Source: Streptomyces rishiriensis
Lineage (GTDB): Bacteria > Actinomycetota > Actinomycetes > Streptomycetales > Streptomycetaceae
Length of the DNA stretch: 64,000 bases
Reading direction: 5' to 3'
Assembly: GCF_030815485.1 (NCBI RefSeq)
Contig: NZ_JAUSWV010000002.1
Span: 4,774,001 to 4,838,000 of the forward strand
Shown here: positions 48,908 to 57,294 of the stretch, piece after piece
Layout of the letters: every line of letters begins with the position of its first letter
Numbering within the stretch: position 1 is the stretch's first letter
Notes under the pieces: model-generated
Database searches by the model: none
Told to the model about the DNA's origin: nothing
The model's input: only the letters and a program-made list of their open reading frames with translations
Translations under genes and position numbers: made by a program

Positions 48908-49573
48908 TCAGCCGGTCTCCGGCGCCACCGTCGGCTCGTCACCGACGACGCTGCTGTAGTCGTTGTGCCAGCTGTACTCCTTCACGAAGCGGCCCCCGGT
49001 CCAGCGGTACGTGACCACGTTCTCCCCCGACGGGTCGGAGACCGGGTCGCCCTTCTCGTACACCTGCTTGGTCACCACGAGGTCGCCCCGGTCCATCTCC
49101 GCGTAGACGGGCGGCTCCTCGGCCCGGAACACGTTCCGGTAGCCGCCGTCGTCGTCGTCCTTCCGGTACACGTACGAGCCCACGCCGACGATGTCACCGC
49201 AGGTGAGCACGTTGACGATGATGTCGTCGCCGGTGCCGCCGGTGAGGTCGCCGTACGACACGTCGACCGGGTACTCGTCGCCGACGCACGGCTGCAGCTC
49301 GCGCTTGACCTCCGCCGAGACCCCGGGGTCGTCCTTGACCAGCCGGACCGCCTTCGTCCGGTCGGGGGGGCCGGTGGAGGCGTCCGACGGAGCGGTGGTG
49401 GCGCCCGCCACCGCGTCGGAGTGAGCCGGACCCTCGTCACGGGTGCCGGTGCCGCCGGTGGCGCAGGCGGAGACGCAAAGGGCGAGGGCGGCGAGCACGG
49501 ACATCGCCGTGATCGCCGCCTGGATGGTGCTTCGGGCCGGTGTGGGCCCGGCCTCGGTCAGGCCGCCGCGCAA
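48908..49573 (-). CDS. cseA: lipoprotein CseA
   Basis: 221 aa from a TTG start (49573) that lies 16 nt inside sigE, with GAGGAG and GGGAG just upstream; this suggests coupled translation. A signal sequence ends in lipobox V-S-A-C (LAALALCVSACATGG), so the mature protein is lipidated and faces outside. The rest (PCVGDEYPVDVSYGDLTGGT, VNVLTCGDIVGVGSYVYRKD) has two Cys that may pair. CseA is a negative modulator of the SigE response in S. coelicolor, probably acting through CseC. Rare start codon may keep its level low. Confidence 0.92.
   Translation of the reverse strand: MRGGLTEAGPTPARSTIQAAITAMSVLAALALCVSACATGGTGTRDEGPAHSDAVAGATTAPSDASTGPPDRTKAVRLVKDDPGVSAEVKRELQPCVGDEYPVDVSYGDLTGGTGDDIIVNVLTCGDIVGVGSYVYRKDDDDGGYRNVFRAEEPPVYAEMDRGDLVVTKQVYEKGDPVSDPSGENVVTYRWTGGRFVKEYSWHNDYSSVVGDEPTVAPETG
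49535..49553 (-). terminator. candidate attenuator hairpin just after sigE, inside cseA
   Basis: GGCCGG (49535-49540) and CCGGCC (49548-49553) form a 6-bp stem with a 7-nt loop, beginning 5 nt past the sigE stop. In S. coelicolor most sigE transcripts are reported to end right after sigE; this hairpin is a candidate for a similar effect here, though short and without T run. Confidence 0.35.
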
Positions 49574-50100
49574 CGCTCCCGCTCCTCACGCTCCAGCGCG
49601 CGTGCGTCCAGATCGCGCGCCTCCAGCTCCTCACGGAGCCGGGCGAGCGCCCGGTGCAGCGTGCTCTTGACCGTTCCTGCCGACATACCGAGGGCGGCGG
49701 CCGTCTCCTCCGTGGACATCTGCTCCCAGTGTCGCAGCACCACGACGCTGCGCTGCTTCGGAGCGAGCACCTTCATCGCGTCCATCAGCAGTGCGCGGTC
49801 GGCGTGCTGCTCGGTGGAGTCGTTCACGCAGGCGTCCGGGAGCTGCTCGGTCGGAACCTCTTCGAGCTTGCGGGCCCGCCACCACTCGGTCCTTGTGTTG
49901 ATCATGACCCGGCGCAGGTAGGCGTCCGCGAGCCGCTTGTCCGCGATGCCGTCCCAACGGCCGTACGTCCGGGCCAGCGCGGTCTGGAGGAGGTCCTGCG
50001 CGTCGACCGGGTCCGGGACCAGCCGCCGCGCGCTGCGCAGCAGCGCGTCCTGCCGCGTGCGGACGTATTCCTCGAACTCGAGCACCTCGCCCTGGGCCAT
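49558..50100 (-). CDS. sigE: RNA polymerase ECF sigma factor SigE
   Basis: 180 aa from ATG 50100 with GGAGG 9 nt upstream. Region 2 (FEEYVRTRQDALLRSARRLV, DAQDLLQTALARTYGRWDGI, DAYLRRVMINTRTEWWRARK) and region 4 (APKQRSVVVLRHWEQMSTEE, TAAALGMSAGTVKSTLHRAL) are complete. This SigE-type factor lacks a dedicated anti-sigma gene beside it and is instead controlled by the CseB/CseC two-component system encoded downstream, directing cell-envelope stress genes. The neighbour order and CseA lipoprotein make the assignment firm. Confidence 0.95.
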   Translation of the reverse strand: MAQGEVLEFEEYVRTRQDALLRSARRLVPDPVDAQDLLQTALARTYGRWDGIADKRLADAYLRRVMINTRTEWWRARKLEEVPTEQLPDACVNDSTEQHADRALLMDAMKVLAPKQRSVVVLRHWEQMSTEETAAALGMSAGTVKSTLHRALARLREELEARDLDARALEREERERCAAA

Positions 50101-50411
50101 GGTCAACCGCCTCCGATTCCCCGTACCGGCGGACTGCCGCCGCCGGTTCACTGCTTGTGGTCTGTAGCCCTCGTGGTCCTGCCGGGTACGCGAATGAAGC
50201 TACGGAGGTGTTGTCACGGCGTTGTCCGAGGCAGCCTGCGGCCAGCGCTCAGCTGTCCGTCGGTTGTGTAACGGAAAGAGGTTTGGGGTAGAGACCCAGG
50301 CCGAATGGCTCGCTTATGGGGTGTTTCGTCCGGACGTCGGACGTGACGGAAGCCCGACGGCGGCTGTCACGAAGCTGTGTACCTGTGAACTGACCGTGCG
50401 TCAGGTCGACC
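50101..50411 (-). promoter_or_regulatory. sigE upstream region
   Basis: 311 bp between mutY and sigE, both minus strand. No gene is seen. The CseB-dependent sigE promoter should lie here; AT-richer stretches occur around 50270-50330. A GACGTC-centred palindrome (TCCGGACGTCGGA area, ~50330-50345) and the 10-bp AGGTCGACCT at 50403-50412, next to the mutY stop, are the visible symmetric elements. Confidence 0.4.
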
Positions 50412-55244: not shown

Positions 55245-55518
55245 GGGGAAACCGTAGCCGCCACCACCGACAGCCGGACGCGCCTGTGGACAACGGGCCC
55301 GCCGGGTGCCCGTCCCGAGTGCCCCGTCGTCGCCTCGCGCGGCCCGCGCCCTACGGAAGAAGGCAGGCCCCCCTTGCGATCCGGCCACGTCCCGTCACGA
55401 ACGAGCCACCGGACCTCCCTTTGCCGTCCCCTTATGGAGGATCGTTTCACCCGTACGGATTAAAAGGACTCAAGGGACAAGAAGACCTAGTTCCGCGCCG
55501 CCTACGGTCGCACGGGTG

Positions 55519-57294
55519 ATGAGCAGCAGCCCGGAAACCTCGACCCGCACGACCGGCGCACACCGGGCGCACCGGGAGGCGCGCGACGGCGCCGCGGCGC
55601 GCACGCTCGCGCAGCGACTTCCCGCGCGCTACGAGCCCTACCTGGACGGCCTGTTCACCTACTGCCTGTCCGTCCTGTGCGACCACGAAACGGCCACCGC
55701 CGCCCTGGGAGACGTCCTCGCGTTCGCCGAACGGCGCGGCCAGCGCGGTCCCGACGCGGCGGGCGACCGCCGGGCGTGGCTGTACGCGCTGGCCCGCTGG
55801 GCGTGCCTGCGCAAGCTGACCGAGGCCAAGCAGCAACGTCAGGGTGCGCAGAAACGTCAGGCCACGCACGCCGCGGCCCGCGACGGCGCCCGTCGGCAGC
55901 CGGGCGCGAAGCCCGCGACGGCCACGAGCACCGCGGCGTCGGCAGGCCCGTCCGCCTCCGACGAGACCCGGGAGCAGCGCCGGCGTGAACTGACCCGGCT
56001 CGCCTGGCCGGAGGCCGCCGGCACCACCCCGGAACAGCGCGAGGCGCTCGAACTCGCCGTACGCCACCACCTCGCCCCCCATGAGGTCGCCGCCGTCCTC
56101 GGCAAGGACCTGGCCGCCGCCCGGGAACTGCTCGCCTCGGCAGCCTGCGAGGTCGAGCGCACCCGCGCGGCACTCGCCGTCGTCGAGACCGGCGGCTGTC
56201 CCGGTGTGGTCCGTCTCACCGGCGAGAACCAGCTGGTGCTCAGCGCCGCCCTGCGCCGCGAGCTCGTCCGGCATGTCGACGACTGCCCGCGCTGCCGCCG
56301 GGCCGCCGAGCGCGCCGTGCCCGGCCGCTGGCCCGGCGCCGGTGTCACCCCCGCCGAGCTGCCCGTCCTGCCGGCGCCCCGCGCGGAGCTGCACAGGGCC
56401 ATGACGCACCTCCCGCGCGCGCGGGGAGCCGCCGCGCCGCGCTACGACCGGCGGGGCTTTCCGATGGATCCCAAGGACCGGGCCGCCCGCCGCGAGCGGC
56501 TCCGCGCGCGTGCCGTCACCACGACCGTGGTCGCCACCGTCGTCGCCGCTCCCGTGCTCGCCCTGTGGGCGGCCTACCGGGGGACACCGACGGGGGAGGG
56601 GGCCGAGGGCCGCTCGGCCAGCGCCAGCGAGGCGCACGGCCCGGACAACCTCGACGGCGAGACGGTCGGCGGCTACGAGAACGCGGGAAACGCCAGCACC
56701 CGCCCCGGCGCCGGCCTCCCCAAGGGCGACGGACCGGATGTCTCCGTCGAGGTCGTCAGCGTCACGGGAGTCGGCCGAGGCGCCGCAGGCAAGCTCTCGG
56801 TGACGGCCGCCAACACCGGTGACACCACCCTCATCACCCTCACCGCGGCCGCCGACGGCGACGGGCCGGTCCGCTGGTCGGCCACCACGGCGGCCTCCTG
56901 GCTGTATCTGAGCCGCTCCACGGGTTCGCTGAAACCCGGCGAGTCGGTGACGGTCAAGGTGTACGTCGACCATCTGCGCGAGCCCTCCGGCCACTGGCAC
57001 GCGCGCGTGGCCGTCGCCCCGGCGGGCGCCGTCGTCTCCATCGAGGGCTACGGCAGGGCGCCCGTCCCCTCGGACCCGGGCAACGGTCCCGGTCCGGGCG
57101 GCCCCGGCGGTCCGCCCCCGTCGTCCGACCCGGAGCCCACGCCCACGGCGCCGTCCTCCCCGGACCCGACTCCGACCGATCCGCCGTCCTCTCCCGACCC
57201 GGAGCCCACGTCGGGCGAGCCGTCGCCGACCGCCTCGGAGGACTCGACCCCGCCGTCCGACGACAGCGACCCCCCGAGCCCGCAGACGTCGTAG
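55519..57294 (+). CDS. membrane protein with sigma-like, zinc-anti-sigma-like and BACON-like parts
   Basis: 591 aa from ATG 55519 (GTG 55516 possible). Residues ~15-95 resemble a degenerate sigma region 2 (RYEPYLDGLFTYCLSVLCDH, AWLYALARWACLRKLTEAKQ); ~150-215 resemble region 4 (TPEQREALELAVRHHLAPHE, VAAVLGKDLAAARELLASAA). Then H-V-D-D-C-P-R-C, an HX3CX2C motif like zinc-binding anti-sigma domains. One TM helix (VVATVVAAPVLALWAAYRG) leads to an external beta domain similar to BACON repeats (LSVTAANTGDTTLITLTAAA, WLYLSRSTGSLKPGESVTVK), ending in a Pro/Ser/Asp-rich wall-spanning tail. Possibly a signalling remnant; function unknown. Confidence 0.85.
   Translation: MSSSPETSTRTTGAHRAHREARDGAAARTLAQRLPARYEPYLDGLFTYCLSVLCDHETATAALGDVLAFAERRGQRGPDAAGDRRAWLYALARWACLRKLTEAKQQRQGAQKRQATHAAARDGARRQPGAKPATATSTAASAGPSASDETREQRRRELTRLAWPEAAGTTPEQREALELAVRHHLAPHEVAAVLGKDLAAARELLASAACEVERTRAALAVVETGGCPGVVRLTGENQLVLSAALRRELVRHVDDCPRCRRAAERAVPGRWPGAGVTPAELPVLPAPRAELHRAMTHLPRARGAAAPRYDRRGFPMDPKDRAARRERLRARAVTTTVVATVVAAPVLALWAAYRGTPTGEGAEGRSASASEAHGPDNLDGETVGGYENAGNASTRPGAGLPKGDGPDVSVEVVSVTGVGRGAAGKLSVTAANTGDTTLITLTAAADGDGPVRWSATTAASWLYLSRSTGSLKPGESVTVKVYVDHLREPSGHWHARVAVAPAGAVVSIEGYGRAPVPSDPGNGPGPGGPGGPPPSSDPEPTPTAPSSPDPTPTDPPSSPDPEPTSGEPSPTASEDSTPPSDDSDPPSPQTS

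Follow-up and report, generated by a model that had tools for sequence, protein, structure and literature searches.

A Streptomyces membrane protein linked to radA combines an apparently repurposed ECF sigma module, a zinc anti-sigma domain and an outside BACON-type domain

The ECF52 sigma factors, reported to be exclusive to Actinobacteria and represented by SCO4117 of S. coelicolor, combine in one chain a sigma domain, a zinc finger, a transmembrane (TM) helix, a proline-rich stretch, and a carbohydrate-binding module outside the cell (PMC5826349). For SCO4117, a strain that expresses the truncated sigma part shows milder effects than the null strain (PMC5826349). The ECF48 and ECF53 groups are C-terminal fusions with a zinc finger and one or two TM helices, and their activation is expected to occur by proteolysis (PMC8999054). 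Glycosyl hydrolase or carbohydrate-binding domains are predicted in some members of ECF52 and ECF53 (PMC10766802). Such fusions of ECF and anti-sigma parts are on record, but have been little tested. Two further systems are relevant to the comparison: PhyR-NepR, in which sigma mimicry is an established mechanism (PMC8999054), and RsrA, whose zinc ligands are Cys11, His37, Cys41 and Cys44 (PMC4960319).

The gene of interest lies in a 64,000-nucleotide stretch of the Streptomyces rishiriensis genome (contig NZ_JAUSWV010000002.1, positions 4,774,001–4,838,000; hereafter, the window). A preliminary description of this gene proposed a single protein that joins sigma-like, zinc anti-sigma-like, TM and BACON-like parts. 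This order stands: evidence from profiles, folds, zinc ligands and hydropathy confirms that the open reading frame consists of (i) a sigma2-like domain, (ii) a sigma4-like domain, (iii) a ZAS module, (iv) one TM helix, (v) a BACON-type beta-sandwich, and (vi) a Pro-rich tail (Table 1). The two sigma-like domains are separated by a variable linker (residues 107–155). At the aligned start position, 78 of 81 loci (the window's included) have ATG, and the remaining three GTG.

Table 1. Positions of the gene, its predicted parts and its upstream elements (window coordinates)
Feature	Position	Strand	Evidence
Conserved upstream block, consensus TGAGGGATCGTTTCACCCGTACGGATTAAAAG, 53–84 bases before the ATG	55435..55466	+	near-ortholog alignment
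Possible Group II (BldM-WhiI) site, differing at one base from TGnnCCGnnCGGGTGA	55447..55462	-	consensus match
Whole gene, 591 aa membrane protein	55519..57294	+	start position kept among orthologs
Sigma region 2-like domain, residues 36–106	55624..55836	+	profile matches, fold matches, alignments
Sigma region 4-like domain, residues 156–224	55984..56190	+	profile and fold matches, alignments
Position of the -35 recognition helix, residues 198–215, net charge -1	56110..56163	+	alignments
ZAS module, residues 227–265, ligands C227, H252, C256, C259	56197..56313	+	ligands in 81/81
Basic juxtamembrane stretch with YDRRGFP, residues 306–331	56434..56511	+	dN/dS 0.06 (306–352)
Single TM helix, residues ~332–352, N-in	56512..56574	+	hydropathy, positive flank
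Extracellular BACON_2/NEW3/PapD-like beta-sandwich, residues 407–514	56737..57060	+	Pfam and fold matches
Pro-rich C-terminal tail, 75 residues, 27 Pro	57067..57291	+	composition

Like ECF52, the window protein carries a zinc finger, a TM helix and a Pro-rich extension behind its sigma domain. The outside module differs: SCO4117 has a module of the smart00776 type (NPCBM in Pfam), while the window protein has BACON_2 instead. In addition, the same genome contains a separate ECF52-like gene, L122 (NPCBM, E = 1.8e-30; Sigma70_r2, E = 5.6e-12), which falls outside the clade of the window protein, but as one sequence on a long branch. Given the different outside module and the presence of L122, straight membership of ECF52 was set aside. 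ECF48 and ECF53 were compared by their descriptions alone, the available portions of which mention neither a BACON domain nor a loss of sigma contacts.

Besides the window protein, the genome encodes three more sigma fusions: the ECF52-like protein (NPCBM), a CAP-bearing protein, and a third in which no outside domain was recognised. The CAP-bearing protein (L112, also L127; G000:C2:622531-623727) is a sigma-ZAS fusion with a YkwD-like outside domain. The third protein (L113, also L128; G000:C2:6093991-6094740) is a sigma-ZAS fusion whose C-terminal part has no Pfam match at E values up to 0.05. Both L112 and L113 belong to the same wider clade as the window protein (96/92), and resemble it in having sigma domain and ZAS site in one chain and, by eye, a TM helix. 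They differ from it in their clear Sigma70_r2 scores (57.1 and 56.4, cut-off 24), and in that the acidic pair of region 2.2 is kept and the -35 helix is basic. With ECF48/52/53-type fusions on record and three more in this genome, the fusion as such is known; the linkage of a sigma module to an outside domain, as in the earlier proposal, has been described for ECF52 (PMC5826349, PMC8999054). The variation here lies in the repurposed sigma module in combination with a BACON domain. No description of this protein was found among the papers listed in searches of a mainly open-access literature.

Taken together, sequence evidence and fold matches support the sigma fold of the window protein well. 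An hhalign comparison of 33 family members (a profile of low diversity, Neff 1.5) with ten stand-alone ECFs encoded in this genome gave a probability of 96.7 and an E value of 4.3e-10, over an alignment spanning residues 37 to 206. This significant match bears out the earlier reading of the N-terminal half (residues 1–230) as sigma-derived. The NCBIfam sigma model NF009166 is matched at E ≤ 0.1 by all 33 scanned members, the window protein included (best E = 1.7e-8). The window protein itself matches NCBIfam sigma models weakly, and shows no sigma domain in Pfam at E values up to 1. On TIGR02937 it scores 13.8 bits, short of the curated cut-off of 42.9, and so lies at the lower end of a gradient that runs from 80.0 bits (L109, a fused ECF) through 43.0 bits (the L105 long gene); the L101 long gene is absent from the TIGR02937 matches.

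Two structure models were built from 42 and 40 near orthologs (pLDDT 64 and 70). The model of residues 32–301 alone (pLDDT 70, pTM 0.46) resembles ECF sigma factors, in line with the fold expected from the preliminary description: its leading PDB matches include SigH, RpoE, SigL, AlgU, BldN, SigK and SigW. The best Foldseek E value is 0.0076 (none is below 0.001), and the best VIA Z score is 8.8, a size that is middling for helical models. When the whole protein was used for the fold search, matches fell on the BACON part only. The sigma-like chains of PhyR are among the weak profile and fold matches, and are no better than true ECF matches. In both the fold and the homology of its sigma2 and sigma4 domains, the window protein is of ECF type. 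A stand-alone ECF sigma gene is also present in the window (49558–50151, minus strand) and served as one of the controls.

Among near orthologs, the rate of amino acid change differs between the parts of the protein. Mean NG86 dN/dS was calculated over all 3240 (dependent) pairs of 81 genes, including nine loci (of the 80 other than the window's) that are cut by contig ends. Values are 0.20 (sigma2), 0.75 (linker), 0.13 (sigma4, residues 156–226), and 0.22 (ZAS); they continue with 0.40 for residues 266–305, 0.06 for the juxtamembrane stretch and TM helix (306–352), 0.67 for residues 353–405, 0.41 for BACON, and 0.49 for the tail. The low values in the sigma domains argue that the sigma-like half is kept by selection, and the module appears to be repurposed rather than decaying. 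The preliminary description of a "worn" sigma factor is therefore apt for the -35 helix and, in the vicinity of the window, for the acids of region 2.2 (see below), but not in the sense of decay (dN/dS 0.20 and 0.13). A decaying pseudogene or a chance open reading frame is ruled out by dN/dS together with conservation at 80 other loci.

The protein is widespread. At least 593 stretches in the genome collection were matched, at least 500 of which encode a relative; the nearest 80 were kept, and the record title names Streptomyces in 79 of them and 'Actinobacteria bacterium OV320' in the other. Of the 21 genomes in a panel that included the window's own, 19 had a match, and the two misses are genomes of the same genus (79% and 98% complete). 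Within its own genome (9.07 Mb, E up to 1), the only match of the window protein is itself.

Sigma contact positions were compared in a panel of 38 proteins, with 11 stand-alone ECFs and four fused proteins (L109, L112, L113 and L122) as controls. The stand-alone set is without three further weak ECF matches of the same genome; several of the SH and LG rows of the panel are near-identical, and the helix stretch of LG_L106 and LG_L107 contains an insertion. Residues 198–215, taken to occupy the sigma4.2 position of the ECF -35 recognition helix, have a net charge of -1 in 80 of the 81 near orthologs, and of -2 in one. All eight Streptomyces-side proteins have a charge of -1. Among the 15 radA-linked proteins from other genera, 14 have a negative charge; SH_L105, a tandem paralog, stands apart at +6. 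Charges of +2 to +6 are seen in all 11 stand-alone ECFs of the same genome, and of +1 to +3 in all four other fused proteins. The basic -35 recognition helix typical of ECFs is hence absent from the window protein.

The acidic contact of region 2.2 is absent as well. The acids of the DAED motif contact the RNAP beta' subunit (PMC8999054); at this position (residues 58–61), the window protein reads TATA. No near ortholog (0/81) has an acid at position 60, and three of 81 have one at position 61, where an acid is found in 11/11 stand-alone ECFs and 4/4 other fused proteins. Acid 61 is kept in two of eight Streptomyces-side proteins and in 10 of 15 radA-linked proteins of other genera, and so the loss of region 2.2 acids is not lineage-wide. 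The lineage is thus marked by its acidic -35 helix, whereas the change in region 2.2 came later and is patchy. Sequence comparison shows a sigma fold and zinc site kept under purifying selection, a -35 helix that has turned acidic, and, in the window's own branch, a region 2.2 whose acids are mostly gone.

On the survival of the -10/-35 contact residues, a point raised in the preliminary description, the outcome is mixed: the helix is acidic in 81/81 and acid 61 present in 3/81, but the next acid, at position 65, is kept in 80/81, and region 2.3–2.4 is basic in Streptomyces-side proteins (+4 to +6). Because of this basic region and its WLYALAR core, some contact with DNA or RNAP may remain. 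Nor is a non-standard helix proof of inactivity, since the GTVKSR motif of sigma4 is also absent from fused relatives that are presumed active. The protein could be a working ECF sigma factor with unusual contacts, one that its own ZAS keeps inactive until proteolysis frees it, a mechanism suggested for ECF52. It has the architecture of ECF52/SCO4117, for which the milder effect of truncation than of the null has been described (PMC5826349). Strong conservation of both sigma regions (dN/dS 0.20 and 0.13), the WLYALAR core with a basic region 2.4, acid 61 in 10/15 relatives of other genera, and acid 65 also speak for a working sigma. We nevertheless regard this as unlikely, given a helix that is net-negative in 81/81 near orthologs and 14/15 radA-linked relatives, and a TIGR02937 score far under the cut-off. 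The window protein is probably not a promoter-specific sigma factor, and its cytoplasmic half presumably no longer directs transcription.

The TATA sequence raises a variant of the same idea, namely a sigma factor switched by phosphorylation. Thr60 lies at the position of the phosphorylated Thr of Vibrio parahaemolyticus EcfP, in which STTA replaces DAED and the loss is made good by phosphorylation (PMC8999054). While Thr60 is present in 75 of the 81 near orthologs, it is found in three of six more distant Streptomyces-side proteins and in none of 15 proteins of other genera, and the -35 helix is acidic regardless of Thr60; we consider a phospho-switch highly improbable. The sigma-like part also contains four cysteines (49, 54, 96 and 210; positions 55663–56148) that are invariant in 81/81 near orthologs. 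Possibly, these are buried, or linked to redox or metal.

Immediately downstream of the sigma-like domains, the HX3CX2C motif was earlier read as a ZAS signature. H252, C256 and C259 are indeed conserved, and are joined by a fourth ligand, C227, that was absent from the earlier note. All four are present in 81/81 near orthologs, are the only invariant columns across 14 members of the fused set, and as CHCC zinc ligands place the module among ZAS domains. Their arrangement, C-x24-H-x3-C-x2-C, compares with a spacing of x25 in RsrA; the ZAS of the window protein differs from the RsrA type in being fused behind a sigma-like domain and before a TM helix. Scores for zf-HC2 (PF13490) are 14.6 for the whole protein and 18.3 for the segment, both below the cut-off of 22.2.

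The TM helix has a Kyte-Doolittle peak of 1.92 and an N-side flank with a charge of +6. Because there is one TM helix with this flank, the BACON part is placed outside the cell. The juxtamembrane YDRRGFP sequence (residues 309–315; 56443–56463) is a motif of the FDxxGFP type, seen by eye also in distant members including L109; it is perhaps a partner or protease site. Residues 407–514 match BACON_2 (PF19190; E = 5.4e-7, 29.9 bits, cut-off 25), while the ortholog L003 falls below the cut-off (22.9). The model of this part has nine strands and, as far as residue 510, block pLDDT values between 75 and 96. Its fold matches are led by a GH115 accessory domain and include PapD/MSP-type sandwiches. 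Gathering score and beta-sandwich fold together identify the part as a BACON domain; a match in fold gives no information on a ligand.

The BACON stretch and the Pro-rich tail continue through the aligned near orthologs. This is consistent with a protein that works mainly in the envelope, by means of its outside domain, and whose cytoplasmic half is a mere anchor or scaffold. Such a division of labour is quite unlikely, however, because constraint is stronger on the sigma and ZAS parts than on either BACON (dN/dS 0.41) or the tail (0.49), and because the zinc site is invariant.

Our preferred explanation, held at a confidence just short of even, is that the repurposed ECF-ZAS fusion acts not as a sigma factor, but as a membrane-tethered partner switch made of a pseudo-sigma and a ZAS part. 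From the anatomy of the protein, we infer that these two parts would be bound to one another at the membrane. The pair might then be opened in one of two ways: the BACON-type domain senses a ligand or the state of the wall, or the chain is cut close to the TM helix. One exposed face would capture a partner: the pseudo-sigma part another ZAS anti-sigma factor, or the ZAS part a real ECF. Capture of either partner would shift an ECF regulon. Partner switching is itself a tentative step, which we regard as possible and somewhat doubtful. The earlier suggestion of a decoy for another anti-sigma factor gains from the changed contact residues, which favour a putative decoy or switch over a working sigma factor.

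The switch proposed for the window protein shares with PhyR a sigma fold that is not used for transcription. Unlike the window protein, PhyR is a response regulator with NepR as its binding partner, and the window protein matches PhyR weakly. If the proposal is true, PhyR-type sigma mimicry would have a transmembrane counterpart in a widespread Streptomyces protein. Relatives with more or less intact sigma domains are available for comparison, so that the family lends itself to a study of how a transcription factor evolves into a switch that works by binding proteins.

The genomic neighbourhood of the gene is shared beyond Streptomyces. In eight genomes from other genera of the order, radA adjoins the gene in all eight, and gppA lies on its other side in seven (the eighth is a short contig). 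Of the Streptomyces-type loci tested, eight of eight have radA and seven of eight gppA. Loci of the other genera contain tandem short and long paralogs, both of which were read in seven of eight cases; in the eighth, the long gene is at a contig end. Among the tandem loci L101–L107, the long radA-linked paralogs match the BACON segment, and the short ones are without such a match. The gap between radA and the gene is 274 bases in the window, 275 in L002, and 200 in L067; gaps of this size leave no room for a short paralog.

In a midpoint-rooted tree, the Streptomyces genes group with the long genes (support 99/97), and support of 96/92 separates the fused set from both the ECF52-like gene and the stand-alone ECFs. 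L109, a fused ECF that was not found beside radA, is placed as a neighbour with weak support (82/78). More speculatively, and with considerable doubt, these genes may encode a lineage of sigma mimics tethered to the membrane. In this view, an ECF-ZAS fusion ceased to recognise promoters and turned into a hub that senses the outside and acts as an anti-anti-sigma or trans-acting anti-sigma factor; it would be radA-linked in the genomes examined across the order, perhaps expressed in development under BldM, and would tune other ECFs by partner switching.

Alignment of near orthologs also revealed the conserved block upstream of the gene. It is nearly invariant: TCACCCGTA is found in 80/81 near orthologs, and TCACCCGTACGGATTA in 52/81. 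A 19-base core of the block occurs at one place in the genome at up to two mismatches. Nine of ten other genomes of the same genus contain the 32-base block, on the expected side of the gene, with 0, 0, 1, 2, 4, 6, 7, 9 and 10 mismatches; the tenth locus, L089, is without the gene start. The block was not found in four radA-linked loci of other genera or in L109 (best 13 to 15 mismatches), and a search of Rfam with positions 55250–55560 gave no match at E values up to 1. Operators for GlnR, PhoP and others were compared with the block by eye and discarded, and a link to Streptomyces CisA (PMC12237407) was considered and dropped.

Within the block lies the possible BldM-WhiI site, judged by the published consensus TGnnCCGnnCGGGTGA (PMC4125116). 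The main text of that paper does not mention radA, disA, BACON or sven3. At up to one mismatch, the window contains two BldM-WhiI sites against 1.38 expected, so the match alone is not above chance; genome-wide there are 261, and 58 for a reversed control. Because such matches are common, and because the invariant block is longer than a BldM-WhiI site, developmental control is at this stage a lead, based on a tentative resemblance of the upstream block to a BldM site.
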